Source: Novisyntrophococcus fermenticellae (GTDB lineage: Bacteria; Bacillota; Clostridia; Lachnospirales; Lachnospiraceae). Taken from it: a DNA stretch of 64,000 bases. A model generated the notes under the pieces. That model worked only from the letters and a program-made list of their open reading frames with translations, was not told where the DNA came from and searched no databases. Position numbers and translations under genes: made by a program. Below are positions 4,091 through 35,437 of the stretch, piece by piece. Within the stretch, counting starts at the first letter, position 1, and each line of letters begins with the position of its first letter. The stretch lies in contig NZ_CP076458.1 in the NCBI RefSeq assembly GCF_018866245.1, positions 1,240,001-1,304,000 on the forward strand, written 5' to 3'.

Positions 4091-4150
4091 GCCCTTGTAT
4101 CTTGAATAGCAAACTTGTTTTGCTATTCAAGATACAAGGGCTTCTTTTTT
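4091..4150 (+). terminator. Long perfect hairpin with U-tract (23-bp arms)
   Basis: Arms at 4091-4113 and 4119-4141 are perfectly complementary around a five-base loop, and TTCTTTTTT follows on the plus strand. It has the form of a very strong intrinsic terminator reading rightward, yet no rightward gene ends here. On the minus strand the same DNA lies in the leader of the oxidoreductase gene (start 4052), where it could act as an attenuator-like stem or an operator. It may be the scar of a lost gene. Confidence 0.6.
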
Positions 4151-4399
4151 ATTATCGCTACAAGACGCTCTGTGCATACAAACAATCCTACTCCATATTT
4201 TTCTTATGAGTTCAAGATTTACGCCGAATGCAGCAACAAGCTAAGTCCCGCTCTCAATCTCGTATTTTAATGTTGTGAATCCATTTTGCCACAACCATAC
4301 TGTGCAAATCTAATTTCCTCTTTCATAGAATTGCTTCCTTTCTTAATATGAATTTGAACTCATCCCCATCCCAAAAGATGTTATTTGTTCAGGTCAGGC

Positions 4400-5511: not shown

Positions 5512-5542
5512 ATGTCCAGAACAGAATTGAATATTGAATAAG

Positions 5543-5583
5543 AAGCGTTGCAGTCTTTTGAGGATTGCAGCGTTTTTCTTTTG
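5543..5583 (+). terminator. Intrinsic terminator after the XRE gene
   Basis: A 10-bp stem with two G-U pairs (CGTTGCAGTC with GATTGCAGCG, loop of seven bases) is followed by TTTTTCTTTT. It lies just after the XRE stop codon and reads in the same direction. Confidence 0.75.
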
Positions 5584-5640
5584 TGCTTCTTTGGCAAATT
5601 TGCGGTTTCCGTTGTTGTAGGTAGTAAGAGGAAAGTTTCT

Positions 5641-5723
5641 TAGCAAGCATAGGAAGTGGGTACCCACTTCCGTATTTTGTCCTGCAAAATGCTTGTTGGG
5701 AAGTATCCCAAACCCTCTAAAAA
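5641..5723 (+). other. Structured repeat, copy A, upstream of mobC (candidate oriT or control site)
   Basis: The DNA starts TAGCAAGCATAGG, carries a perfect 20-bp palindrome at 5652-5671 centred on GGTACC, a small ATTTTG/CAAAAT hairpin, then ATGCTTGTTGGGAAG, a TGGGA/TCCCA mini-hairpin and AACCCTCTAAAAA. GCAAGCAT pairs with ATGCTTGT to close a cruciform-like three-way fold. A second copy in the opposite orientation lies at 14136-14240, with the same ends but different, still complementary, inner arms. Copy A ends 18 bases before the mobC start. An origin of transfer or a shared regulatory site is inferred. Confidence 0.6.
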
Positions 5724-5741
5724 CGGAAAGGAGCGCAAAGC

Positions 5742-6071
5742 ATGAATGGACGAAAAAGAACGGTGCAAATTAAGTTTCGCGTTACCAATGAAGAGTTCGC
5801 ACTGATAGAGGAAAAAATGAAGCTCATACCCACCTGTAATATGGCGGCGTATCTGCGAAAAATGGCAATCGACGGATACATCATTCAGATAGACCATTCC
5901 GACATAAAGACAATGACAGCAGAGATACAGAAAATCGGGGTCAACATCAATCAGATTGCGCGCCGCGTCAATACGACGGGTAGCGCATACCTAGAGGATA
6001 TAGAGGAAATCAAGGAGGTGCTTAATGAAATATGGCGGTTACAAAGATTAATCCTATTAAAAGCACGTTGA
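5742..6071 (+). CDS. mobC: MobC-family relaxosome protein
   Basis: This 109-residue protein begins with a ribbon-helix-helix-like strand (RTVQIKFRVTNEEFALIEEKM), followed by YLRKMAIDGYI and the conserved MobC helix GVNINQIARRVNTTG. MobC proteins bind the origin of transfer and open it for the relaxase. Its last 40 bases overlap the relaxase gene, which means tight translational coupling. AAAGGAG precedes the ATG. The structured repeat directly upstream is the likely binding region. Confidence 0.9.
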   Translation: MNGRKRTVQIKFRVTNEEFALIEEKMKLIPTCNMAAYLRKMAIDGYIIQIDHSDIKTMTAEIQKIGVNINQIARRVNTTGSAYLEDIEEIKEVLNEIWRLQRLILLKAR

Positions 6072-7381
6072 GCAAAGCCCTTGACTATATCCAAAACCCG
6101 GGAAAAACGGACGGGAAAATGCTCGTGTCCTCTTTCGGCTGCTCCTTTGAAACGGCTGATATTGAGTTTGGATTTACCCTTTCGCAAGCATTGGATAAGG
6201 GAAACAACCTCGCTCATCATTTAATACAATCCTTTGAGCCGGGGGAAGTGGATTATCAGACCGCCCATGAAATCGGGCGGCGGCTTGCCGACGCTGTTAC
6301 CAAAGGGCAGCATGAGTATGTTTTGACGACGCATATTGATAAGGGTCACGTTCATAATCACATCATTTTTTGTGCTGTCAATTTCGTAGACCTCCACAAG
6401 TATAATTCCAACAAAAGAAGCTATTACGGCATACGGAACATGAGCGACAAGCTGTGTAGGGAACATGGTTTATCTGTTGTCGTTCCGGGCAAAGGCAGCA
6501 AGGGAAAAAGCTATGTAGAGTACCAAGCGGAAAAGATGGGTACGAGTTGGAAAGGAAAGCTAAAAATTACGGTTGATACCCTTATCCCTCAAGTGTCCGA
6601 TTTTGAAGAATTGTTGCTCCAATTGGAAGCGACAGGCTATGAAATCAAGCAGGGAAAATATATATCATGCCGCGCACCGGGACAGGAACGGTTTACCCGT
6701 TTGAAAACCCTCGGTGCCGATTATACAGAGGAAGCCTTAACAGAACGTATCAAGGGTAGACGCACCCGTGCCGCTAAAGCCCCACGGACAGAAAAAAAGG
6801 GCGTTTCCTTGCTGATAGATATTGAAAACAGTATCAAGATGCAGGAGAGCCGGGGCTATGAGCAATGGGCGAAAATCCACAATCTGAAACAGGCTGCTAA
6901 AACCATGAATTTCCTTACAGAAAACAAGATAGAACAATATGAGAACTTGACCGCTAAGATTGCGGAAATTGCGGCAGAGAGTGAACAGACCTACGACGCA
7001 TTAAAGACCGTCGAAACCCGCCTTGCGGACATGGCGTTGCTGATTAAGAATATCATTACCTACCAAAAGACAAAGCCTGCCTATGATGCATACCGCAAAG
7101 CAAAAAACAAAGAGAAATACCGCGCAGAGCATGAAAGCAATATCATTCTGCATGAAGCCGCAGCCAAAGCATTACGAGCGGCGCAGATTGGCAGCAAGCT
7201 GCCTAATGTCGCCACCCTGCAAGCAGAGTATGAAAAGCTGCAAGAGGAAAAAGAAAAACTGTATGCCGACTACGGCAAGCTGAAAAAACAAGTCAAGGAA
7301 TACAGCGTTATCAAGCAGAATATTAACAGCATTTTGCGGCTCAATAAAGATCCGGAACGGGGAAAGGAAGCGGAGCGATAG
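6032..7381 (+). CDS. MOBP-type relaxase
   Basis: This 449-residue relaxase/mobilisation nuclease (PF03432 type) nicks one strand at oriT and leads it into the recipient. Motif I with the likely catalytic Tyr is ALDYIQNPGKT near residue 19. The metal-binding histidines are in HIDKGHVHNHIIF near residues 105-118. Residues of about 280-430 are strongly charged and helical (coiled coil), as in other relaxases with a C-terminal scaffold region. Length fits the Tn1549-type family. It starts inside mobC and is followed by a strong two-way terminator. Confidence 0.92.
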   Translation: MAVTKINPIKSTLSKALDYIQNPGKTDGKMLVSSFGCSFETADIEFGFTLSQALDKGNNLAHHLIQSFEPGEVDYQTAHEIGRRLADAVTKGQHEYVLTTHIDKGHVHNHIIFCAVNFVDLHKYNSNKRSYYGIRNMSDKLCREHGLSVVVPGKGSKGKSYVEYQAEKMGTSWKGKLKITVDTLIPQVSDFEELLLQLEATGYEIKQGKYISCRAPGQERFTRLKTLGADYTEEALTERIKGRRTRAAKAPRTEKKGVSLLIDIENSIKMQESRGYEQWAKIHNLKQAAKTMNFLTENKIEQYENLTAKIAEIAAESEQTYDALKTVETRLADMALLIKNIITYQKTKPAYDAYRKAKNKEKYRAEHESNIILHEAAAKALRAAQIGSKLPNVATLQAEYEKLQEEKEKLYADYGKLKKQVKEYSVIKQNINSILRLNKDPERGKEAER

Positions 7382-7408
7382 CTTGCTATGTTTCTGTTTC
7401 ATAAAAAA

Positions 7409-7438
7409 TCGGCTCGAACTTCCCTTAGTTCGAGCCGA
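7409..7438. terminator. Bidirectional terminator between relaxase and small-peptide gene
   Basis: Perfect 11-bp arms (TCGGCTCGAAC and its complement) enclose an 8-base loop, with A-rich DNA on the left and a short AAA run on the right. It separates the rightward relaxase gene from the leftward 41-residue gene. Confidence 0.75.
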
Positions 7439-7442
7439 AATG

Positions 7443-7568
7443 TTAGTGCTTTGTATTTTTGTGATTTACTAAAGTTTTTGCAGCGTTACTTTTTGTACTC
7501 TTGCTACTGGATTTAGAAGCAAGTGCCTTAGCCGCAGCTCCAACTTTTCCACCGTGATGTACTGCCAT
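7443..7568 (-). CDS. Small basic protein of 41 residues, function unknown
   Basis: The ATG at 7568 is preceded by AAGGAGGT at ideal spacing, which argues for a real gene although the product is only 41 residues. It starts MAVHHGGKVGAAAK, continues with a Ser/Lys-rich middle (ASKSSSKSTKS) and ends in a His/Lys tail. There is no membrane segment and no Cys. It follows the DUF3892 gene on the same strand by 13 bases, so the two are probably co-transcribed. I do not recognise the family. A nucleic-acid-binding role or a peptide precursor would both fit its charge and size. Confidence 0.7.
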   Translation of the reverse strand: MAVHHGGKVGAAAKALASKSSSKSTKSNAAKTLVNHKNTKH

Positions 7569-7581
7569 ATTATTTACCTCC

Positions 7582-7860
7582 TTATACTCTCGGTAATCTA
7601 AGCAAATTATCGTATTGGGTATCATTTGGTTCTGAACGAACATATTTCTCACCTCTTGAACTTGTTGCTGGAACAAGATACGGATAAGGTGAAATATTAA
7701 CCTTAATGCTGTTCGGGTTTTTGATTAAGTGGTCGTGCAGTGTTGCTTTTGGGAAAAAGCCCGGATTATTGCAACCATCAATATAGATTTCGGCAATTTC
7801 CTGCGTGTTGTTGGAGTTGGCACACCCCTGTTGCATTTTGATTTTCTTTGCGTACATCAT
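7582..7860 (-). CDS. DUF3892 family protein
   Basis: This 92-residue protein matches DUF3892 in its visible pattern: IYIDGCNNPGFFPKATLHDHL, a PYPYLVPATSSRGEKYVRS block and a C-terminal DNLLRLPRV. The function of the family is unknown. An AGGAGG site precedes the ATG at 7860. It is the first gene of a leftward pair with the 41-residue protein. Upstream on the other strand lie a 17-base-spaced promoter and terminator of a probable small RNA, so the pair may be regulated with or by that transcript. Confidence 0.8.
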   Translation of the reverse strand: MMYAKKIKMQQGCANSNNTQEIAEIYIDGCNNPGFFPKATLHDHLIKNPNSIKVNISPYPYLVPATSSRGEKYVRSEPNDTQYDNLLRLPRV

Positions 7861-7941
7861 AATATGTACCTCCTATAATTTATTTGCAAACAGAAGAAGC
7901 CTTGTTGTGGTTATCTGTCATACAACCACAATATGTAGCGG

Positions 7942-7970
7942 TTGTATCTTTCCTCTAAAACTGGTATAAT
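7942..7970 (+). promoter_or_regulatory. Strong promoter for a probable small RNA
   Basis: TTGTAT (7942-7947) and a perfect TATAAT (7965-7970) are 17 bases apart. Just upstream, TTGTGGTT (7905-7912) and AACCACAA (7924-7931) form an inverted repeat that could bind a regulator. No open frame of useful length follows. Confidence 0.7.
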
Positions 7971-7976
7971 GACCAT

Positions 7977-8066
7977 AGGGATTTGGCATTACATAGTTAT
8001 ATGGAGTACCAAAGTAACAAGTAACAGTAGTTTGCGAGTACCAGTCGCAAATCTGCTGTTTTTTCT
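7977..8066 (+). ncRNA. Candidate small RNA of about 90 nucleotides
   Basis: A near-consensus promoter ends six bases upstream. A strong intrinsic terminator (stem 8024-8059: 7 bp plus 7 bp with one bulged base, loop GTACCAG, then TTTTTCTTTTT) closes the transcript. The only ATG-started frame inside has five codons, so a structured RNA is more likely than a peptide. It lies between the leftward DUF3892/peptide pair and the rightward XRE-ImmA pair. No known RNA family was recognised. The target is unknown. Confidence 0.55.
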
Positions 8067-8097
8067 TTTTCTATTTGCTTGAAGCACCGTTCCTTCG

Positions 8098-8175
8098 ATG
8101 CAACACCAGTATAACATATATGTTCCTCAAATGCAACACCTTTTTGTTGCATTCATGGAACGGCTATGCTATACT
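8098..8175 (+). promoter_or_regulatory. Promoter and repeated operator of the XRE-ImmA operon
   Basis: TTGCAT (8147-8152) and TATACT (8170-8175) are 17 bases apart. ATGCAACA occurs at 8098 and 8131 and in inverted form at 8145-8152, where the pair 8131-8138/8145-8152 makes a perfect 8-bp palindrome over the -35 box. This looks like an operator through which the XRE protein represses itself. Confidence 0.65.
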
Positions 8176-8199
8176 CTAAAAAAGAAGGGAGATGAACAT

Positions 8200-8544
8200 A
8201 TGGACAGCTTATCTTTTGGACAATATCTTGTTCAGTTGCGAGAAGAAAACTCAATAAGCCAGAGGAAATTAGCGGAAATAGCTGGTGTAACCAATTCCAC
8301 TATAAGCCGCATTGAAGCTGATAATGTCAAGCCTGACCCGGCTACATTAGAAAAATTAGCAGACGCATTAAAAGTTGAAAAAGAGGTTTTGTTAGCAAAA
8401 TGCGGTTATATTCCAGAAGAATTTGTTATTATTGCACGTAAAACAGGCGCTCTTTCGGAAGAAAAAAGAGCTGAAGCATATAAGATATTTAACGATACGA
8501 TTGATAAATTCCTCCTTGAAGATGATGATGACGAGGAGGATTAG
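8200..8544 (+). CDS. XRE-family repressor
   Basis: This 114-residue protein has an XRE helix-turn-helix at about residues 8-60 (LREENSISQRKLAEIAGVTNSTISRIEADNVKPDPATLEKLADAL) and a very acidic C-terminus (LEDDDDEED). I place the start at the ATG at 8200, which follows GGGAGATGAAC at good spacing. Earlier in-frame ATGs lie inside the operator. It forms a two-gene unit with an ImmA-type protease two bases downstream, as in ICEBs1, where ImmA cleaves the repressor ImmR when the element is induced. That control is inferred here. Confidence 0.88.
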   Translation: MDSLSFGQYLVQLREENSISQRKLAEIAGVTNSTISRIEADNVKPDPATLEKLADALKVEKEVLLAKCGYIPEEFVIIARKTGALSEEKRAEAYKIFNDTIDKFLLEDDDDEED

Positions 8545-8546
8545 CG

Positions 8547-9179
8547 ATGAAATATGATTGGTCAAAAATTACTTCCTCAGCATATTTAACACTATTAGAA
8601 CTTGATTTACATGAGTTTCCTATTCCTGCAAACAAAATAAAGTGTAAAAATGTAATGATATGTAGTTATCAGAAGTATTCAAAAAAAACAGGCTGTTCAA
8701 TAGAAAAAATAACTCTTGGGCACGAGCTTGATGATGCTTTTCTGCTAAAGGGGCTTCGTCCGGGTCTGACAATGATTTTATATGATAAAGAGAAATATGG
8801 TGCGCGCTTAAAACATACATTGTGGCATGAGGTAGGTCACATTAAATGTAACCATAAAAATCACGGTGAGCAAGAGGAAATAGAAGCCCACTTCTTTGCT
8901 GCGCAAGCTAATGCTCCAAATGTACTTATTAAAGCGATTTCTCAAAGAGGATATGCTATAACGATACCTTTTCTTATGGAATGTTTCGGGTTAAGCGAAG
9001 AAGCTGCGAAAAAGAAAAAAGAATATTTAAATAAATATGGATTTGAACATAGCAATGAATATGATGATGTAGTGTTGATGCAGTTTAACGATTACATAAA
9101 TAGAAAATACCCGCCCAAAACCACACATTTTTTTGATGATTATTATGATGATATGGAAAGAGAACGGGAAAAATGGTAA
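8547..9179 (+). CDS. ImmA/IrrE-family metallopeptidase
   Basis: This 210-residue protein has the zinc protease motif HEVGH in HTLWHEVGHIKCNH near residue 95, followed by EEIEAHFFAAQANAP, where the third metal ligand Glu is expected. This is the ImmA/IrrE pattern. Such enzymes cut the partner XRE repressor and so release an ICE or prophage from repression. The gene starts two bases after the repressor stop, which indicates co-translation. The C-terminal part is acidic and rich in Asp and Tyr. A terminator follows at once. Confidence 0.9.
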   Translation: MKYDWSKITSSAYLTLLELDLHEFPIPANKIKCKNVMICSYQKYSKKTGCSIEKITLGHELDDAFLLKGLRPGLTMILYDKEKYGARLKHTLWHEVGHIKCNHKNHGEQEEIEAHFFAAQANAPNVLIKAISQRGYAITIPFLMECFGLSEEAAKKKKEYLNKYGFEHSNEYDDVVLMQFNDYINRKYPPKTTHFFDDYYDDMEREREKW

Positions 9180-9184
9180 AAAAG

Positions 9185-9230
9185 GACAGGGCGCGGAAAG
9201 CCATTTATTGACTTCCGCGCCCCGTCTTTT
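9185..9230 (+). terminator. Intrinsic terminator of the XRE-ImmA operon
   Basis: A G+C-rich stem formed by GGGCGCGGAAAG and CTTCCGCGCCC is followed by GTCTTTTTAT, directly after the ImmA stop codon. Confidence 0.8.
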
Positions 9231-9253
9231 TATGGGTGCTGTTTTTGATGTTC

Positions 9254-9368
9254 TGTCACGCAGTAGAACGCCATTTTTTAGGGTTTAGGTATAAAACTCT
9301 TGCCCGGTCATTTTCGTGTCTGTAAAGCCCTATTACACAAGGCTCTTTTCGCCCCTATCGCGTGACAA
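9254..9368. repeat. Dispersed repeat of about 115 bp, copy C1
   Basis: This stretch aligns without gaps to 29060-29174, with roughly 70 per cent identity by eye. Shared blocks are TGTCACGCAGT at one end, AGGTATA, CTTGCC, AAAGCC, CAAGGCT, TTTTNGCCCCTA, and GCGTNAC at the other end. In this copy GTCACGC and GCGTGAC are inverted terminal repeats. It covers the last codons of the broken cysteine-rich gene and the intergenic DNA after it. Confidence 0.65.
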
Positions 9369-9718
9369 TAGACGCTGTTTTCTCTTGCGTTCCGTCGCTT
9401 GTATGCGCTGTATCTTCTTGCGGCAATCCGGGCAGTATTTGACATTGTTTGAGCTTGACACAAAGGCCGCGCCGCACACCAGGCAACGCCGCTTGTCCTC
9501 GGCTGCGTAAAGCTCGGAATATAACACTTTATCAAGGGGCAGGACAGCGGCGCGAAACCATTTGCAAAGCAGGGAGTATGAAATAAGCTGCGGACAAACG
9601 CACTCGTCCCCGTCGTCATGCAATATGCAATTTCCGTCAAAGCAGTTGCAGCACTCTTTCTTCACAAGGGCGTTTACCCGTCTGCTTTGGGGTGCGTCAG
9701 TCGCTTAATCTCACTCAT
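9333..9718 (-). pseudogene. Cysteine-rich VLP-type protein, frameshifted near its start
   Basis: The main frame holds CCNCFDGNCILHDDGDECVC, SYSLLCKWFR, and a second zinc-type cluster CLVCGAAF ... KYCPDC with a basic tail. This is the pattern of the cysteine-rich VLP family found in conjugative elements. The natural start is probably the ATG at 9718 (MSEIKRLT...), which overlaps the stop of the preceding gene. That start runs out of frame at a GGGG run (9689-9692 on the plus strand). One extra base there would rejoin MSEIKRLT to PQSRRVNALVKKECCN. So the gene is either broken by one base or read through a later start. A sequencing slip in the run is the alternative. Confidence 0.75.
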
Positions 9719-9921
9719 ATTTCATCGGCGGCGTAAACGGCAAGCTCCGCATACTCTGCTTCACTCAATGGGGCGATTTTTTCAAGGGTACGCACCGCAA
9801 GCTCCCTCATAGCCGCGTCCATATAGGGCAGCGCAGCGGTGATGTTGGCAGTTACCTCCTGCTTGCCGCCCTCGTTGTAAATGCTCTAAAGGTTTGTTTC
9901 CTCAATGGTAAATCTATTCAT
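9715..9921 (-). pseudogene. Transposon-transfer assisting (TTRAP-type) small protein with internal stop
   Basis: From the ATG at 9921 the frame reads MNRFTIEETNL, then a TAG at 9886-9888, then SIYNEGGKQEV, TAALPYMDAAMRELAVRTLEKI and ends AVYAADEI. The whole 68-codon frame fits the short TTRAP-type proteins of Tn1549-like elements, in which the stop position is usually a hydrophobic residue. A GGAGGT site precedes the ATG, and the stop overlaps the next gene (ATGA). The amber codon makes it a probable pseudogene. Confidence 0.7.
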
Positions 9922-9923
9922 GC

Positions 9924-10865
9924 TCATACCTCCAAATCGTGATTTTTTGAATTTGCCGCCTTTTTGGGGGCGGCTTTTTCCTTGTTCTTTGTAAGCTGCG
10001 CCCGGATAGACTGGCGGGGCTTGCGAATATCCTTATTGCGGTTTTCGTCTTTTGCAACCATAGCGTAAATGCAGCGTCGATCTTTGAGATTGCCAAGGGT
10101 CAGCGTCTTAAAGGGCAGTATGGCAAGCAGACGGTCGGTATCTTTGCTTGACGCAAGCTGTGTAAAATACAGCGATACCTCCACCATGAAATGGGTCGTG
10201 TTGGGGTTGTTCGGCTCTTTAAGGGTTTGAAGCCCGGACAAAATGCGTCGGGCTTCGCTTTCAATCCGGCTGTCCTGCAGAGCGGCAATATGCTCTTTGA
10301 AATTCCCCAGTGGTAACTTATCTAGTCTGTGTTTTTCCTCTTGCAGAATATAGCGCAAGGCTTCCGGGTCATTGGGCTTCACTTCAAAGCGTTCAAACTT
10401 TCCAAGCTGCGGCTCGGGGGCTGCGTCAAAACACTGTTTTGCAAGCTGTTCCCGCTCTCCTTTCTCGTAAAACAGCGTGTAGGTGTCAGCAGGCAAGGCA
10501 TGGTCGATAACATGCTTGAAATGCTGCGGATAATCAAGCTCGTATAAGCTGCCTTTCATTTTCTCGTCCTCGCTGTCGGTGATTGTAACAGCGTAAGCAA
10601 GAATATGGTCGTGGGTCTGCTCAGCATAGAAACGCCATGTATTGTGGGCTGCGGTGTCCTTTAGAAAAACGTCGCTCTCTCTGAAACAATGCGTCCCCGA
10701 CGGGCGGGAAAGCCAAAGCAGCGTTTTGTCCTCGGCGGCGGGACTTGCCGCCACTTTCTGAAAAATCTCTTTGTCAATCTGAAAATCACTTTGATAAAAT
10801 GCGGTATTCTGCCGCATGATTGCACCAAGAGAAGCGAATATATCCACGTTTTCAAACTTATTCAT
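9924..10865 (-). CDS. ICE accessory protein with C-terminal SIRAQL tail (DUF4316-type)
   Basis: The likely product starts at the ATG at 10865 (MNKFENVDIFASLG) and has 313 residues. An upstream extension of the frame overlaps the previous gene and has no ribosome site. The body has no motif I can name. It ends in a basic tail, RQSIRAQLTKNKEKAAPKKA, nearly the same as the tail of the anti-restriction protein encoded just upstream. It begins four bases after that gene's stop, so the two are coupled. DUF4316-type annotation is from recall of similar ICE proteins and is uncertain. Confidence 0.65.
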   Translation of the reverse strand: MNKFENVDIFASLGAIMRQNTAFYQSDFQIDKEIFQKVAASPAAEDKTLLWLSRPSGTHCFRESDVFLKDTAAHNTWRFYAEQTHDHILAYAVTITDSEDEKMKGSLYELDYPQHFKHVIDHALPADTYTLFYEKGEREQLAKQCFDAAPEPQLGKFERFEVKPNDPEALRYILQEEKHRLDKLPLGNFKEHIAALQDSRIESEARRILSGLQTLKEPNNPNTTHFMVEVSLYFTQLASSKDTDRLLAILPFKTLTLGNLKDRRCIYAMVAKDENRNKDIRKPRQSIRAQLTKNKEKAAPKKAANSKNHDLEV

Positions 10866-10869
10866 GGAA

Positions 10870-13800
10870 TTAGCTCTTTTCCAAATCCGGCTCTTTGTTC
10901 TTATTGTCCCTTTTTGGGGTAGCTTTCTTTTTATCTTCGGCAAGCTGCGCCCGGATTGAAGGCTTATGCTCCTGCTTCCCGCCGCCGCGCTCCTTGTCAG
11001 CTTTGATAGCAGCGGCAAGGTCAGATAGGTTAATTTGTCCCCCGGCTTTTACCTTTGCTTCCAACTCGTCCACGGTGGGCGTATTGTTGATAATGCCGTC
11101 AATCATGTTAAAATTTTGGTCGGTAGATTTCTCGGCGGCAGCAAGGGGATTGAAGCCATTGACTACCTCTGTCATACGTTCTTTGAGAATTAGTAAATTC
11201 TCGCTTTGTGCCGCAAAACTGATAAGCTCTTTTATTTGTTCCTGCTCCGACGAGATTTCCCCGGACAGCTTATCAAGCCGTTTGATTGCCATACGATAGG
11301 CAGCTTCCCCCATTGTTTTATTAGGGTCGGCGGTCATTACATTGTCATGGATTTTCTGTAAGCGTTCCGTTATATGCTGTAAATCAAAGGGGTGTTCCTG
11401 CTGTAAAAACTCCGGAACTTTGGTAAAAAGTCCCCCACGGTCTACATAATGGGCGGTGTCCTTACCGCTCTGATGAAGCACTATCATGTCGGAAATAGAA
11501 ATGCTATGCCCTTTGAAGTCCTCCGGGCGGTCAATATTGAAACGCTCAAAGATATGTTCAAGGGTCATGCCCGGTGTAAGGGGGGCGGTGTAGGTATGTT
11601 CATAATTTTCTGGGTCAACGGCAAGCCCCGCCGCCTGTAACCGCTCATAAGGCTCAAAACGGTAATCGCGTGTTTCGTCCCCACGCTTTAGCTGATAAAT
11701 GGAAAAGGTGTCGCGCTGCTCCTGTTCGACTGTCTGCTCCTTGCCTTTTTGAATTTCTGCAATATGCCCGTCAATGGTATCAATGAGTTCTGCGGCGGTG
11801 CTGCGGATTGTTTCAAGGGAGCTTTTCAGTTCCGCAAGCTCCTTGCCACTGCTCCACCCAGCAACATATCCAAAGGAATAATCTGACGTATCAAGCCCGT
11901 AATGCTGGCAAACGGTGTATGCGATACTTTCTGCTTCCACTTCACGGGTGCGGCGGTCAGGACGGTTTTGTTGTTCCTCTTTCGGGTCGGTCAAATCAAT
12001 GTCATGCAGCTTTGCATGAGCGATTTCATGTATCAAAGTTTTTAGTGTCTGCAACTGGCTTGCTCCCTCTAAAAGCACAATCCGTTTGTCTTCTAAATGG
12101 TAATAGCCCTGTGTACCGCCTGTCATTTCTTCAAAGCCTACGGGAACGGGGGAAGTCCTTTCAAGGGCAGCGAAAAAATCCTTGTACTGCTCCACATCAC
12201 CCGTTAGAGCGTCCACGGCAATATCGGGCAATTCCTTTCCCTCGGTCTGTGAAACATCAAAGACAGAAACCACCTTAAAGGCAGGGATAGTGACCTCGAC
12301 TTCCTCCGTTATAGGCTTGCCACTCTTACCAATAACGGGACGCTGCGTACTGGGGTCGATTTTTTCCATTTTCTTTTTTATTTTGAATGGGGACGGGGCA
12401 ATGATTTTGATACCCTTTTCGCCCTTTTTAACATTACGCTCAAACTGATTTTTCCAAGAGGAAAAGCCCGCAATAAGGGAAGCGTCCGACTTCTGCATGG
12501 CAATAAGCAGGGTATTGTTAAAGCTGTAATTATGAAACTTTGACATGACGCTTAAATATTCTTTGTAGCGTTCGCTATCAAACAGTTCTTGAATCCCCTG
12601 TTCCAAGCGGTGGGTAATCTCTTTGAGCTTTTCGGCGGGCTTCTCGGAAGTGAGAACAAGGGGAATAATGGGGCGTGGTTCGGTTGGCTCTGTGGTCAGC
12701 GTCGCCGCTTGCCTCGCACTAATTTCGTCCCTATCTGTCTTTTCGGGGTCGGGTGGCTGCGGGTAGCTCATAATGCGGTACTGCTCCGGCACGTCGCGCC
12801 CCTCATAGTGGCGTTCCCACTGGTCGCCGCTTGCCACAAGATAGCTGTTTCCGACAAACTCCCCTTGTTCCTTTCGGGCTACATAAATACCAAGGGCAAC
12901 GGTATCAATCCCGGCTTTCCATTCCTCCGGCATTTGTACCATACCGGATTTATTCAGATAGTAGTCGCCTAAATCTCCCGCCTTGTGTATGTCGGGGATA
13001 TGAACATAAAAATCCGTATTGTAGGTAAAATCTATCATCTGCCCGATACTCTCAAAGCCTTTTCGCCCCTGTGCGACGGCGTTAAACTTTTTAAGTTCGG
13101 CGGGGTCAAGCTGCCCGATACGCGCCGCAAGAAAATTTAGTTCGTCCACGGTGGAACTATTTATCACATCATAAGGTAGGGAAAGGGATTTATCTTGTGG
13201 ATAATCATAGCCGCCGATAAAGAGGTATTGCGGTTGGTCTGCGGTAATACCAAGAATTTGTATCGCTTCTTGTAGCTGTTCCCTTGTGGCGGGTAAACCA
13301 AGCCATGCGCCGCCTGGTTTGTCCGGGGATAGATTTTGAACATTGCCGATATAAATTGAAAATACTTCGCCCATGTGTTCACGCTCCTTTCGCTGCTCGG
13401 TGTGTTCAGAAACAGAAACACCGCTTATTGGAATGTCAGCGGTATGCTCCGGCTGTTGTACTTCCTCTCCCTCCACTGTGTAGCCCGGTAAGAGTTGACC
13501 GTTTACGCGAAAATCATTAGCGTAACCCTGCGGGATAGACGGCGATATTTCCGTGAATAGGTGGGAATACGCCTTGATACGTCCGGCAAGATATTTTTCC
13601 ATATCGGCTCTGTCTGAATAGACTTTTTTATCATGTCCGGCAATTTTTGTACGCCTAAGATTTTGCGGCGGATTTGTGTATATGCTCCATGTCAATTCCC
13701 ACGCCACGGGTACGGATTTTTCCGTTTCCCGGTCATACCTTGTCCGTTCATAAATATGGTGCGACATGGAATATACCATGTTGCTCATTTCCTGCCAGTC

Positions 13801-14112
13801 ATTGTTATGCTCGGATTTTTTCCATTGATTGGAGGTGTGCTTGACGGTGGGGGTTCTGGCATATTCAATCGCTTTATCAAACAACTGCGTTTGTCCCGCC
13901 TGTGCTTCCCATTCTGCCGACGCTTCGCGCAATTTATCATAAATCACCTGTTCAGCCGCCGCGCTTTCCGCGCGCATAGCTCGTAATTGCTCCACGGGTA
14001 AGGCCGTCAAGCCGGAAGTATCCCCGTTGCCCGCTCTGAAAGAAATGGTACGTTCAATTCTCATGTTCTCGGCGGGTTGTAGTCTATCATGGTCGTAAGA
14101 GGTATAAGGCAT
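10870..14112 (-). CDS. Large anti-restriction fusion: ArdA-like, ArdC-like with zincin motif, YodL
   Basis: This 1080-residue multidomain protein is likely delivered or made early in the recipient. Residues of about 1-215 are a conserved ICE N-terminal region. Residues of about 250-450 resemble ArdA (FSIYIGNVQNL ... GAWLGLPA), a DNA mimic that blocks type I restriction. Residues of about 485-745 resemble the ArdC single-strand-binding fold with a gluzincin site HEIAH near 695 and an EAES Glu downstream. Residues of about 800-910 match YodL (FSIYQLKRGDETRDYRFEPYE). It ends in a SIRAQL-type basic tail. Translation starts at 14112 after GCGAGGAAAGCT, 24 bases after structured repeat copy B. Confidence 0.85.
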   Translation of the reverse strand: MPYTSYDHDRLQPAENMRIERTISFRAGNGDTSGLTALPVEQLRAMRAESAAAEQVIYDKLREASAEWEAQAGQTQLFDKAIEYARTPTVKHTSNQWKKSEHNNDWQEMSNMVYSMSHHIYERTRYDRETEKSVPVAWELTWSIYTNPPQNLRRTKIAGHDKKVYSDRADMEKYLAGRIKAYSHLFTEISPSIPQGYANDFRVNGQLLPGYTVEGEEVQQPEHTADIPISGVSVSEHTEQRKEREHMGEVFSIYIGNVQNLSPDKPGGAWLGLPATREQLQEAIQILGITADQPQYLFIGGYDYPQDKSLSLPYDVINSSTVDELNFLAARIGQLDPAELKKFNAVAQGRKGFESIGQMIDFTYNTDFYVHIPDIHKAGDLGDYYLNKSGMVQMPEEWKAGIDTVALGIYVARKEQGEFVGNSYLVASGDQWERHYEGRDVPEQYRIMSYPQPPDPEKTDRDEISARQAATLTTEPTEPRPIIPLVLTSEKPAEKLKEITHRLEQGIQELFDSERYKEYLSVMSKFHNYSFNNTLLIAMQKSDASLIAGFSSWKNQFERNVKKGEKGIKIIAPSPFKIKKKMEKIDPSTQRPVIGKSGKPITEEVEVTIPAFKVVSVFDVSQTEGKELPDIAVDALTGDVEQYKDFFAALERTSPVPVGFEEMTGGTQGYYHLEDKRIVLLEGASQLQTLKTLIHEIAHAKLHDIDLTDPKEEQQNRPDRRTREVEAESIAYTVCQHYGLDTSDYSFGYVAGWSSGKELAELKSSLETIRSTAAELIDTIDGHIAEIQKGKEQTVEQEQRDTFSIYQLKRGDETRDYRFEPYERLQAAGLAVDPENYEHTYTAPLTPGMTLEHIFERFNIDRPEDFKGHSISISDMIVLHQSGKDTAHYVDRGGLFTKVPEFLQQEHPFDLQHITERLQKIHDNVMTADPNKTMGEAAYRMAIKRLDKLSGEISSEQEQIKELISFAAQSENLLILKERMTEVVNGFNPLAAAEKSTDQNFNMIDGIINNTPTVDELEAKVKAGGQINLSDLAAAIKADKERGGGKQEHKPSIRAQLAEDKKKATPKRDNKNKEPDLEKS

Positions 14113-14135
14113 AGCTTTCCTCGCTTTCTTTTAAT

Positions 14136-14240
14136 TTTTTAGAGGGTTTGGGAAACTTCCCAACAAGCAAAATTCCCGCCGTTCTCATAGAGAAAAGGCG
14201 GGAATTTTACGGAAAGGGTACCCCTTTCCTATGCTTGCTA
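14136..14240 (-). other. Structured repeat, copy B, upstream of the anti-restriction gene
   Basis: Read on the minus strand it starts with the topB stop codon (TAGCAAGCATAGGAA), then a GGAAAGGG/CCCTTTCC hairpin centred on GGTACC, then a 12-bp stem (AAAATTCCCGCC with its complement, 14169-14208), then TTGCTTGTTGGGAAG, the TGGGA/TCCCA mini-hairpin and AACCCTCTAAAAA. It matches copy A (5641-5723) at both ends, while the inner arms differ but stay paired. The 12-bp stem may also end topB transcripts. It ends 24 bases before the anti-restriction start codon. Confidence 0.6.
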
Positions 14241-16343
14241 CGAAAGTTCTTTGTCCCTCTGAATGGTAATTCGGTAATTGATGTATTTCCCGCCTGTGTC
14301 GGCTAAAAGCACTGTTCCGTCGTAGGTTTTACCCGTCTTTGGGGAGTAAAGCCCCTTGACCTTTGCCTTACCGTTTTTTAGGAGAGCGGCGGCAATTTTA
14401 GAGGTAAAGGCGGTTTTGCGTTCCTCAAAAAAACGGTCATTTTTCCACATGACAAAGGAACAATCCTTATCCCCGCAATAGTAATTTTTCTTGCCCTCGT
14501 ATACATCAGAGCCGCAGCGGGGGCATTTGCCTAAAGCGGTCTTTTCTGTTTTGAATAAACCGCCGTTCTCCCCGGAAAGGACGGGATAGGCTTTCACAAG
14601 CTCCTGCGCCATGCTTTCAATACCGCGCATGAAAATGTCCGGGTCGGCTGCGCCCTTTGCAATCAGCGTCAGAGCATTTTCCCATTCAGCCGTGAGCTTC
14701 GGAGAAGTGAGGGTATCGGGTAGTACGGCAATCAGATTTTCCCCGTCTTTAGTGGGGATAAGCTGCTTTCCCTTACGCTGCACAAAGCCGGATTTTACTA
14801 ACTTTTCAATGACAGCGGCGCGGGTGGCGGGTGTGCCTAATCCTTTCCGTTCCGCTTCCTCGGTGGTGTCCTCACTCCCGGCACGTTCCATAGCCGACAA
14901 TAGCGTGTCCTCGGTGTGGGGCTTTGGCGGGGCGGTGGTATGCTCCGTAACCTTTGCCGGGACAGGTTTCACGGTCTGCCCCTCGGAAAAAGGCGGTGCG
15001 TCAAGTTCCAAGACTTCGTTGTCGTCGTCCTCGGTGGAATCAGTTTTGCCTTTTAGTGTCGCCCGGAAACGGCGGTCAAGGTCTTTCCAACCAATACAAA
15101 GAATGGTCTTTCCTTTGGCGGTAAACTGTTGTCCTGCACATTCAAAAACTGCCGTAACTGCTTCGTAAACGTGTGGCTCGGCGGTGGCGCAGAGCAGACG
15201 GACACCTGCAAGGATAAGAATACTTCTTTCGCTCTCCGGCAGGGCGGAAAGGTCGGTTTTCCCAAGCTCGGCCGTAGGTATAATGGCGTGGTGGTCTGAT
15301 ACCTTTTTGCTGTTCAGCGTTCGGTAAATGTCGGTGGTAAAATCTGCGCCCTGCATAAAGGACAACTTACCCATGAGGACGGACACAACACCCGCCGTCG
15401 TATCGCCCATATCGTCAGAAAGAAACTGGCTGTCAGTACGGGGATAAGTCAAAAGCCGCTTTTCGTACAATGTTTGTGCAAGGTCAAGGGTTTGTTTCGC
15501 GGTGTAGGAATACAGGCGGTTTGCTTCCCTCTGCAAGCTCGTAAGGTCAAAGAGCTTCGGCGGGGCAACAGTCTTTTTCTCCTTTGCCACGGAAACGCAA
15601 ACAGCCTGCGACGCTTCACAAGCTGTTTTGAGGGATTCGGCTTCTTTGGCGGTGGAGATCCGGCAGCTTGCCGCGTCCACACCGCCTACATCAAGGCGCA
15701 CGATATGGTATTTTTCTTTTTGAAAGCCGGATATTTTTGCTTGCCGCTCGGTGAGCATAGCAAGGGTCGGGGTCTGCACCCGCCCTACGTTTAGGGTCTT
15801 ATCATACAGGACAGAGAAAAGGCGGGTCGCATTGATACCGACAAGCCAATCAGCCTTTGCCCTGCATAGGGCAGAGTGGAAAAGCGGGTCATACTCCCGC
15901 CCGTCTTTTAGTGTTGCAAAACCCTTTTTAATAGCTTCGTTCTCCATTGAGGAAATCCAAAGCCGGGAAAAGGGTTTGTTGCAGCCCGCTTGCAAATAGA
16001 CGAAACGGAAAATCAATTCACCCTCACGCCCTGCGTCGGTGGCGCATATCAGGCTTTCAACGTCAGGGCGGCGCATAAGCTCCCGCAAAAGGTTAAACTG
16101 CTTTTTCTTGTCCGGGGCAACGGTATACTTCCAATCCTGCGGCAGAATGGGTAAGGCTTCATAGCTCCATTTTTTGTACTGCTCCCCATAGGCGGCGGCT
16201 TCGGAAAGCCCCACCAAATGCCCGACGCACCAAGAAACAAGATAGCCCGCGCCCTCAATATAGCCGTCCTTTTTTTTCTTTGCTCCAAGAACGGCGGCGA
16301 TAGTCTGGGCGACGCTGGGTTTTTCTGCGATTATAAGTTTCAT
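14238..16343 (-). CDS. topB: DNA topoisomerase III
   Basis: This 701-residue type IA topoisomerase relaxes or decatenates DNA by cutting one strand. It starts MKLIIAEKPSVAQTIAAVLG (Toprim), with the acidic metal site in ICATDAGREGELIFR near residue 100. NVGRVQTPTLAML is near residue 190, and the catalytic Tyr is in LLTYPRTDSQFLS near residue 305. A zinc-ribbon-like segment CPRCGSDVYEGKKNYYCGDKDC lies near residue 610. An ATG at 16343 follows AGGAG and is preferred over one five codons upstream. TopB copies of this kind are regular parts of Tn1549-type elements and may aid plasmid-like replication and transfer. Confidence 0.95.
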   Translation of the reverse strand: MKLIIAEKPSVAQTIAAVLGAKKKKDGYIEGAGYLVSWCVGHLVGLSEAAAYGEQYKKWSYEALPILPQDWKYTVAPDKKKQFNLLRELMRRPDVESLICATDAGREGELIFRFVYLQAGCNKPFSRLWISSMENEAIKKGFATLKDGREYDPLFHSALCRAKADWLVGINATRLFSVLYDKTLNVGRVQTPTLAMLTERQAKISGFQKEKYHIVRLDVGGVDAASCRISTAKEAESLKTACEASQAVCVSVAKEKKTVAPPKLFDLTSLQREANRLYSYTAKQTLDLAQTLYEKRLLTYPRTDSQFLSDDMGDTTAGVVSVLMGKLSFMQGADFTTDIYRTLNSKKVSDHHAIIPTAELGKTDLSALPESERSILILAGVRLLCATAEPHVYEAVTAVFECAGQQFTAKGKTILCIGWKDLDRRFRATLKGKTDSTEDDDNEVLELDAPPFSEGQTVKPVPAKVTEHTTAPPKPHTEDTLLSAMERAGSEDTTEEAERKGLGTPATRAAVIEKLVKSGFVQRKGKQLIPTKDGENLIAVLPDTLTSPKLTAEWENALTLIAKGAADPDIFMRGIESMAQELVKAYPVLSGENGGLFKTEKTALGKCPRCGSDVYEGKKNYYCGDKDCSFVMWKNDRFFEERKTAFTSKIAAALLKNGKAKVKGLYSPKTGKTYDGTVLLADTGGKYINYRITIQRDKELS

Positions 16344-16388
16344 AAAAGCTCCTTTCATGGTAAAATAATTTAAATGGAGGTGATAAAT

Positions 16389-29290: not shown

Positions 29291-29362
29291 GATTATAGAT
29301 ATGTTTAATTGTCTTTAGATTTTTTGAAAACCCTGTATTCATGCGGTTTTCCGTGGTTGTCA

Positions 29363-29659
29363 TTAAATACACGGTGCGGTAGGTCCGGTAGCACCGGTAA
29401 CACCAGTAACACCAGCAGGTCCTGTTGGACCGATTGGACCTATAGGTCCTCTTTGCCCCATCGGTCCGATCGGACCCATTGGCCCTCTTTGCCCCATAGG
29501 CCCCATCGGTCCCATAGGTCCCATAGGTCCAGGACATCCTCTGGGGCCCGGGGGTCCGGTAGGTCCCACATTACAAGACGGATACGGGGGTCTGCACCTA
29601 CATTCACTCATAGATACATCAGAATTGTTTTCGACTTTTTTTTCAAAAAATTCTTGCAT
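29363..29659 (-). pseudogene. Collagen-like exosporium protein, truncated by the ICE
   Basis: The 98-residue remnant begins [20 protein letters not shown], nearly the same as the intact paralogue at 33851-35437, and has about 20 Gly-X-Y triplets ([14 protein letters not shown] type). The triplet pattern breaks after GATGPT, giving APCI and a stop just where ICE-like DNA begins (about 29370). The BclB-like C-terminal domain is missing. Upstream DNA is also shared with the paralogue, including the sporulation-type promoter. So the ICE has probably inserted into a once full-length gene. A naturally short protein is the alternative. Confidence 0.7.
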
Positions 29660-33850: not shown

Positions 33851-35437
33851 TTATAAAATATTAATTCCAGCGCTGGCATAACCTGTTAACGTATTGACGA
33901 GCGAAATGCCGCTGGCCGTTAACGTAAATACCATCAGAAGTCTTGTTCCCGCTGTTACAGGAATATTTAATCCTGAAAGAGATCCGGAGGCAATATCTCC
34001 AATAGTTATAATTCCGCTGAAGTTTGGAGCAAGCGTAACTTCAGTTCCGGCAATAGGTGAAAAAGTATTATTCGGGGTTGCAGATTGATAAAGTTGGGCA
34101 TGAACTGTCAGGTCTGTTCCAATTAAGCTAAGCCCCAGAACAACACTGAAGTATGCTGTGACGTCCGAAATTATACCGTCTCTGGGTACTGAAAAAGCCA
34201 TGTTGGCTAACAGCCCACCTGCACCAGTCAGGTCAATTGTGGCACCCAAAACATTTGGCAGAACCGTACTGTTACCAAAAGCAATGACAGCTGGCAGTCC
34301 CACAAGTCCTAAAGCAATTGAAGTTGGTGCAACCGGAAGTCCGGATGCAAACGGAATAATTGCACCGCTGCCGGTAGGCCCAGTAGCGCCGGTAGGACCA
34401 GTGGCGCCAGTAGGACCGGTAGCGCCGTCAGCGCCGGTAGGCCCAGTAGCGCCAGTAGGACCGGTAGCGCCGTCAGCGCCGGTAGAACCAGTGGCGCCAG
34501 TAGGACCGGTAGCTCCGGCAGCGCCGTCAGCGCCGGTAGGGCCAGTAGCGCCAGTAATACCATTAGCCCCGGTAGGACCGGTAGGCCCTATAGCCCCAGC
34601 AGGACCAGTGGCACCAGTAGGACCGGTAGCGCCGTCAGCGCCGGTAGGACCAGTAGCTCCGGCAGCCCCGTTAGCCCCAGCAGGACCAGTGGCACCAGTA
34701 GGACCGGTAGCCCCGTCAGCGCCGGTAGGGCCAGTAGCGCCAGTAATACCATTAGCCCCGGTAGGACCGGTAGGCCCTATAGCCCCAGCAGGACCAGTGG
34801 GTCCAGTAGCGCCAGCAGCCCCGTCAGCGCCGGTAGGACCAGTGGGTCCAGTAGGACCGGCAGCCCCATTAGCCCCGGCAGCGCCAGTAGGACCAGTAGC
34901 GCCAGTAATACCATTAGCCCCGGTAGGACCGGTAGGCCCTATAGCCCCAGCAGGACCAGTGGGTCCAGTAGCGCCAGCAGCCCCGTCAGCGCCGGTAGGT
35001 CCAGTAGCGCCAGTAATACCATTAGCCCCGGTAGGACCGGTAGGACCTATGGCTCCAGCAGGACCAGTGGGTCCAGTAGCACCAGTAGCTCCGGCAACAC
35101 CATTGGCCCCGGTAGCGCCGGTCAAACCAGCAGGACCGGTCGGCCCGATCGGTCCCATCGGTCCTCTTTGCCCCATAGGCCCGATAGGTCCCATCGGTCC
35201 TCTTTGCCCCATAGGTCCCGTTGGTCCCATAGGCCCCATCGGCCCGACTGCGCCCCTGGGTCCCATTGGGCCGATAGGCCCCATTGCCCCCGCTGGCCCC
35301 ATGGGCCCCCTACATCCCCTGGGACCCGGAGGTCCGGTAGGTCCTATATTATAAGGCGGACACGGTGGTCTGCATCTGCATTCACTCATAGATACATCAG
35401 AATTCTTTTCGACTTTTTTTTCAGAAAATTCTTGCAT
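33851..35437 (-). CDS. Collagen-like exosporium glycoprotein (BclA/BclB type)
   Basis: The protein has 528 residues. A 30-residue N-terminus with a Cys pair ([11 protein letters not shown]) is followed by about 100 Gly-X-Y triplets (residues of about 31-350). The first part is rich in GPMGPMGP and GPIGP, then [11 protein letters not shown] units. The last 170 residues are a jelly-roll-like domain ([20 protein letters not shown] ... [18 protein letters not shown]) as in BclB-related proteins. Such proteins form hair-like filaments on the spore surface and are glycosylated on Thr. There is no Sec signal. It has a sporulation-type promoter and its own terminator. The paralogue at 29363 is truncated. 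Confidence 0.9.
34370..35140. repeat. Tandem Gly-X-Y coding repeats
   Basis: This is low-complexity coding DNA built of 9-base units and higher-order blocks, such as a repeated run encoding [20 protein letters not shown]. The larger blocks recur at least four times and are nearly identical, so copy number probably changes by recombination or slippage. Confidence 0.85.

Follow-up and report, generated by a model that had tools for sequence, protein, structure and literature searches.

Two facing copies of a covarying hairpin element, probable origins of transfer of a single relaxosome, in a Tn1549-type element of Novisyntrophococcus fermenticellae

Why should one mobile element carry the same set of hairpins twice, once in front of its relaxase operon and once, in the opposite direction, in front of a gene with anti-restriction domains? 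The question is raised by a 64,000-nucleotide (nt) stretch of the N. fermenticellae genome (RefSeq assembly GCF_018866245.1, contig NZ_CP076458.1, positions 1,240,001 to 1,304,000; hereafter the window), which contains an integrative and conjugative element (ICE) of the Tn1549 type. We consider it probable that both copies are origins of transfer (oriT) read by one relaxosome, copy A being the main site and copy B a second, inverted one. The first-pass annotation had described the two copies, with shared ends and inner hairpins that differ yet remain paired, and its observation was confirmed, coordinates included. The copies and their parts are as follows (H1 to H3 are hairpins; an arrow marks the cut at the nic site).

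5641..5723, plus strand: copy A, proposed oriT next to mobC-relaxase (sequence, folds, covariance model match of 84.8 bits at 5641-5719)
5643..5651, minus strand: putative nic region of A, TATGCTTG↓C on the bottom strand (motif listed for Tn1549, GCTTGC in the copies, spacing)
5652..5671, plus strand: H1 of A, GGAAGTGGG/CCCACTTCC (sequence, DNA folds)
5674..5690, plus strand: H2 of A, ATTTTG/CAAAAT (sequence, RNA folds)
5696..5711, plus strand: H3 of A, TTGGGA/TCCCAA (sequence, folds)
14136..14240, minus strand: copy B, facing A, proposed second oriT (sequence, folds, covariance model match of 94.2 bits at 14140-14240)
14148..14163, minus strand: H3 of B, TTGGGA/TCCCAA (sequence, folds)
14211..14229, minus strand: H1 of B, GGAAAGGG/CCCTTTCC (sequence, H1 comparison across ICEs)
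14230..14238, plus strand: putative nic region of B, TATGCTTG↓C on the plus strand (same motif as A)

Each copy consists, in this order, of the nic region GCAAGCATA, H1, a variable H2, GCTTG, H3 (TTGGGA..TCCCAA) and ACCCTC. H1 is a near-palindrome centred on GTAC, and the internal GCTTG pairs with the 5' GCAAGC. The 33-nt 3' ends of A and B differ by one base and gave two matches in the window and none in 100 shuffles; the 5' 15-mer is the same in both copies and is, taken alone, near chance level (five matches with up to three mismatches, 2.06 expected). Both copies fold more strongly than dinucleotide shuffles, as RNA and as DNA and on either strand (z -3.20 to -8.10). The initial three bases of copy B are the stop codon of topB. 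As separate observations, H1 of copy A (5652-5671) also rates as terminator-like, and a strong terminator-like hairpin lies at 5541-5577, between the upstream helix-turn-helix (HTH) gene and the mobC operon.

Conserved ends and compensatory changes had suggested selection on structure in the first-pass annotation, and the covariation was found to reach far past two copies. The covariance model was built from 41 copies, and a 90-copy alignment fitted to it, which favours the structure, had standard pairs in 96.0% of the pair cells of the distinct copies (75.1 ± 0.6% in shuffles, 35-50% in slid controls) and two-sided changes in 436 cells (138.9 ± 10.5 in shuffles, 38-88 in slid controls). The number of pairs with any two-sided change was 16 against 13.6 ± 0.9 in shuffles, 10 of 500 of which reached 16; in an unfitted MAFFT alignment of the 41 copies, two-sided changes were present in 13 of 25 RNAalifold pairs. 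H1 and H3 come close to palindromes, so a protein dimer bound to double-stranded DNA could also account for their covariation. The arms of H2 are widely different and its loop varies in length, so that this hairpin points to folding itself. Wobble pairs on the sense strand of H1-H3 (46 G-T versus 34 A-C) show no clear RNA-like excess, with an RNA-like lean in H2 (34 versus 13) and the opposite lean in H1 (8 versus 18), and thus leave the folding strand undecided between the two.

The core pattern (up to three mismatches) is present in 31 of 299 genomes of the same family, and the reversed control pattern was absent among the matches listed for these genomes. Among 391 genomes drawn from across the class, the covariance model recovered the element in 85, a number that may be low, as at most 10 candidates per genome were scored. 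In the genomes of named species the exact core pattern occurs in at least 119 stretches; among the 80 matches listed, many belong by title to Lachnospiraceae or Oscillospiraceae. Rfam gave no match in the window at gathering scores, and a DNA similarity search with copy A gave one record each in plasmids and in phages. The variability of the inner hairpins accounts for the paucity of similarity matches; searches with the 3' core pattern and with the covariance model succeeded, the latter with rough E-values and with counts that are inflated by related copies.

What does the element do in front of mobC? Read on the opposite strand, its 5' end gives TATGCTTG↓CTA. Of 104 copies, 100 carry GCTTGC on the bottom strand of this end and 81 the full RYGCTTGC, and the spacing between H1 and nic is 8 nt in 79 of the 89 distinct copies that could be parsed. 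An inverted repeat followed by 8 nt and a nic site is a layout known from other oriTs, and the oriT of Tn1549, which has a MOBP relaxase with MobC, was reportedly the subject of work by Tsvetkova, Marvaud and Lambert in 2010. The Tn1549 nic is given as RYGCTTG↓C in a table of PMC7755788, alongside the CTTG↓C nics of pRS01 and pRJ6, and MobC is stated in a review (PMC12857230) to recruit the relaxase to oriT in Tn1549. The Enterococcus faecalis plasmid pMG2200, which carries a Tn1549-type element, has A in front of mobC and B behind topB, with RYGCTTGC at the 5' ends of both. Because of the nic motif, the H1 spacing, the pMG2200 layout and the recruitment by MobC, copy A is most likely oriT, a proposal of the first-pass annotation that its place before mobC-relaxase also supports; as such it would be known biology in a new host. 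The cut would fall in A between the complements of 5644 and 5643, 8 nt from H1, and in B between 14237 and 14238. Copy A also contains, in its H2 loop, a TCCTG that resembles RP4-type nic sites; it was ruled out as nic, since H2 is variable and TCCTG is missing from other copies.

Copy B keeps the nic motif, spacing and hairpins of A, both in the window and in the related ICEs. It is usual, not universal: both copies are present in 24 of the 26 loci with relaxase and topB matches of good length in home-made profile searches (24 of 25 where both genes are complete), a frequency biased upward by the many loci that were found via the element. Of the two others, the stretch of L230 ends at the relaxase start and L128 is without B, for which reason the statement that both copies are always present was dropped. 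L268-L271, four loci collected solely for the likeness of their relaxases (59.2-80.6% identity), each contain A and B in converging orientation.

Within an ICE the two copies match in H1. Across 25 ICEs, A and its own B are 0.60 edits apart in H1, against 4.67 between ICEs (p=5e-5). The difference persists with one ICE per 90% relaxase cluster (1.08 versus 5.58, n=12, p=5e-5), per 80% cluster (2.0 versus 6.9, n=6, p=0.003) and per 70% cluster (2.4 versus 7.6, n=5, p=0.017). In L129-L131 and L270 an A without any H2 stands beside a B with a long H2, so that copying of the whole element is not the cause of the likeness; partial gene conversion between A and B is possible. The match is probably best explained by a shared trans-acting factor that recognises H1 of A and of B alike; MobC or the relaxase is the likeliest candidate. 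Of the 25 pairs, 13 (window included) were noticed as a pattern pair and five as a model pair; L055, L072 and L075 had one pattern match and a second copy from the model, and L268-L271 came in via relaxase similarity. L135, with 100.3 bits for B but just 24.8 bits for A, was left out. The copy comparison set comprised 74 loci and the window, short duplicate and weak loci being omitted (among others L010, L016, L026, L029, L034, L036, L037, L060, L066, L074, L076-L078, L124, L134 and L138).

The genes around the two copies in the window are:

5742..6071, plus strand: MobC, NikA-like, PF21983/PF05713 (profile match)
6032..7381, plus strand: MOBP-type relaxase, PF03432 (profile match)
10870..14112, minus strand: polyvalent protein with LPD34, ArdA, ArdC-N, M78 and YodL domains, starting 27 nt past copy B
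14238..16358, minus strand: DNA topoisomerase III, topB (profile match); its stop codon overlaps the start of copy B
5590..5619, plus strand: promoter-like box TTTGGCA-N17-GTTGTA upstream of A (pattern scan; putative function)

The gene behind copy B had been called an anti-restriction gene; the ArdA and ArdC-N domains are present, but the product is a polyvalent protein of 1080 amino acids. The ICE is about 36 kb long, with approximate ends: a large serine recombinase gene lies about 5 kb to the left of the window start (G000:C1:1233069-1234748), and the right end is near window position 29,360, adjoining a short collagen-like reading frame (29363-29659). Collagen-like sequence is also found just left of the recombinase (G000:C1:1231774-1233020), and the ICE appears to interrupt a collagen-like gene with GXX repeats, a paralogue of which is located at window position 33851-35437; a search with the end of the paralogous protein found only that protein itself.

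The covariance search that the first-pass annotation had suggested yielded 231 copies, or 201 distinct ones after removal of 30 identical copies. Their neighbourhoods were classified with home-made profile searches, on which the assignments depend, and the shares are not natural frequencies, as most loci were found via the element itself. Eighty-one copies lie before mobC or the relaxase on the same strand (class A, defined by either gene) and 53 after topB (class B). A further 19 lie beside a divergent serine recombinase (class D), five between a recombinase and an antiparallel MobC (class C+D), one before an antiparallel MobC only, and two combine A and D; the remaining 40 have none of these neighbours, and 19 of them are close to a contig edge. 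A MOBP relaxase match within 4 kb accompanies 75 of the 81 A copies, two of the 53 B copies and none of the 19 D or five C+D copies. L276 and L277, with relaxases about 40% identical and topB absent from the stretch, have one clear copy each, before mobC (61.3 and 43.2 bits). Additional copies were noted as well: L270 has a third copy (4127-4229, 45.9 bits), L268 a further, weak match (29.2 bits) and L036 three copies in all. The genome of the window has two more loci with a PF03432 relaxase, and neither of these gave an element match, even at E<=5. Two facing copies separated by only about 100-200 nt lie at the border of a different type of island (L067 960-1272, L068 964-1375).

The class D copies lead to islands with no MOBP relaxase near the element. 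Small islands such as those of L073 (at about 1.6-7 kb of the locus), L069, L064 and L070 combine a serine recombinase, the oriT-like element, few cargo genes and a sigma-70-like gene. Of the four genes named in L073, one is that of the serine recombinase; the others code for a TetR regulator, a ferredoxin/flavodoxin protein and a sigma-70-like factor, and a response regulator gene follows just outside. No relaxase was found among these four or among the five named genes of L069, part of the open reading frames of each island having been scanned. In L051, L054, L136 and similar loci, a serine recombinase flanks the element on one side and an antiparallel MobC on the other, again with no MOBP relaxase match within 4 kb. 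A search for the empty site of L073 gave, outside its own genome, short matches only. Such islands could hitch a ride on the ICE machinery via the shared oriT-like site.

Many copies are accompanied, within 260 nt, by a box TTTGGCA-N16/17-GTAGTA. It lies upstream in the same direction in 40 of the 81 A copies, downstream in the same direction in 24 of the 53 B copies and downstream and inverted in 15 of the 19 D copies, and is absent from the five C+D and the two A+D copies. Its density is 0.49 per kb-strand near copies and 0.08 elsewhere in the same loci. Where found, the box is nearly always directed at the mobC-relaxase, polyvalent gene or recombinase side, like a shared promoter, and might be recognised by the sigma-70-like factor for which both ICEs and islands have a gene (L073 5906-6349; L269 8571-9002). 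A Monoglobus ICE has just two box matches in 25 kb, one at each copy, and in L269 boxes are at 11532 (plus) and 18784 (minus); the L268 (pMG2200) and L130 stretches gave no match.

How would two facing sites work? We propose that the NikA-like MobC and the MOBP relaxase would recognise H1 and the adjoining nic region and cut the strand reading TATGCTTG↓CTA, 8 nt from H1. Transfer from A would bring in the DNA left of A (HTH gene, cargo, recombinase) first and mobC-relaxase last. From B, cut on the other strand of the ICE, transfer would proceed rightward, with topB and the type IV secretion genes first and the polyvalent gene last. Since the sites are inverted, a strand started at one would carry only the uncut complement of the other, so that by this reasoning transfer would not stop early, and two outward forks would replicate the excised circle in both directions. 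More tentatively, as something possible rather than expected, we extend the proposal to Tn1549-type ICEs generally: two facing oriTs matched in H1 would serve one relaxosome, cuts on opposite strands would start forks that run outward from the mobC-relaxase-polyvalent module and allow transfer of either strand or bidirectional replication of the circle, and small serine-recombinase islands would use the same oriT code.

Besides the upward bias of the A/B frequencies, several observations weigh against these proposals. The strand assigned to the nic depends on a motif taken from a secondary table. L128 (2339-4435) has A and topB, the next reading frame following directly after topB; an unfiltered covariance model search gave nothing above 2 bits at the place of B, whose absence was also confirmed by eye, and this exception slightly lowers our confidence. 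With 4 edits between its two H1 stems, the pair in the window shows the poorest agreement of all 25, and in the B of L132 the base directly after nic is changed. H2 has a smaller concordance too (normalised, 0.43 versus 0.47 in 12 ICEs, p=0.013; 0.43 versus 0.52 in six, p=0.005), so that gene conversion or shared descent may contribute to the likeness of A and B. L278, with a relaxase relative of 40% identity, gave a weak match only, in the other orientation (23.4 bits). In addition, the Tn1549 relaxase is cited as cis-acting in PMC6856555, which speaks against helper use by the islands. A decaying ICE as the cause of the unequal H1 stems in the window was also considered and is unsupported, given the recombinase on the left and collagen-like coding sequence on both sides.

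Could only A be cut, with B, derived from an oriT, serving as the operator by which MobC or the relaxase regulates the gene of the polyvalent protein, in the way that A would regulate mobC? We think this unlikely, although a match in H1 is as expected for two binding sites of one protein. The distances would suit an operator too: in all 25 ICEs the end of A is 17-25 nt from mobC, and in at least nine of them the end of B is 19-33 nt from the gene that follows. So would the A-type copy that alone is carried by integrative and mobilisable elements with a relaxase and no topB (L276, L277). B, however, keeps the nic region and the 8-nt spacing, needless for an operator, and elsewhere is up to 133 nt away from the next gene, with the promoter-like box after B in 24 of the 53 copies. 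Co-regulation of the mobC and polyvalent operons by the two copies may occur.

Two readings that start from the folds themselves fare worse. The first-pass annotation had seen in B a single-strand promoter of the Frpo type, from which the incoming strand would express the anti-restriction protein early, and both the strong single-strand DNA folds and the site just upstream of an ArdA-containing gene agree with this. With the strand of RYGCTTG↓C, however, the gene would come in late whichever oriT is used, and when transfer starts at A it would arrive as the non-template strand. Anti-defence genes are described in PMC11541004 as working best in the leading region of the transferred strand. The same element is also found before mobC and on islands, and a linear sigma-70 scan of both strands, which covers unfolded forms only, gave no -35/-10 elements at A or B. 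We therefore regard the promoter as very improbable; a nic on the other strand would change this verdict. Hardly any credence is left, slightly less even than for the promoter, for a cis-regulatory RNA leader of mobC and the polyvalent gene. The RNA folds are strong and both copies end shortly before start codons in many ICEs, but no Rfam family matches at gathering cut-offs and the G-T and A-C counts in H1-H3 (46 versus 34) lack a clear RNA-like excess. If the box is a promoter, the element would be sense in A, not transcribed from the box in B, where the box lies beyond it (24 of 53), and antisense on the islands (15 of 19), which argues against a leader; moreover, six of the 201 copies face an antiparallel MobC.

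Paired oriT sites of one relaxosome, the reading that we prefer, have relatives among known systems. R6K has two oriTs, alpha and beta, on one replicon, a plasmid. In ICEclc both oriTs serve transfer, and oriT1, less so oriT2, supports replication of the excised form (PMC6561031, PMC5714925); as far as these sources go, the likeness lies in one ICE with two oriTs and one relaxase, whereas the relaxase class and host are different. With the oriT of Tn1549 the element shares the nic motif (table in PMC7755788), the site before mobC-relaxase and the ICE architecture (pMG2200); it differs in that a covarying multi-hairpin element of about 100 nt is defined here and a second, facing copy is described. 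We found no report of two oriTs in Tn1549-type ICEs in the literature within reach, to which Tsvetkova 2010 and Guedon 2025 did not belong, and claim no novelty for B. The mobilisable genomic islands of the SXT/R391 family, as described in PMC5704250, likewise combine an integrase with an oriT that mimics that of the helper ICE, and have no relaxase; the islands found here differ in their serine recombinases, MOBP-type oriT and clostridial hosts, and their mobilisation is predicted from sequence. The Frpo/ssi promoters of F-like plasmids (PMC11541004) share with copy B a hairpin DNA near an anti-restriction gene; here the gene would lie outside the leading region, given the putative nic, and the element is not specific to the gene and has a nic motif.

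Tn1549-type ICEs carry vancomycin resistance in enterococci, e.g. on pMG2200, and the element is common in gut Clostridia. With a covariance model of the oriT, possible passengers can be picked out among islands that lack mobility genes, which shows what DNA such ICEs could mobilise. A conserved second oriT, inverted and changing in H1 together with the first, would be unusual, and offers a simple test of transfer or replication in two directions.

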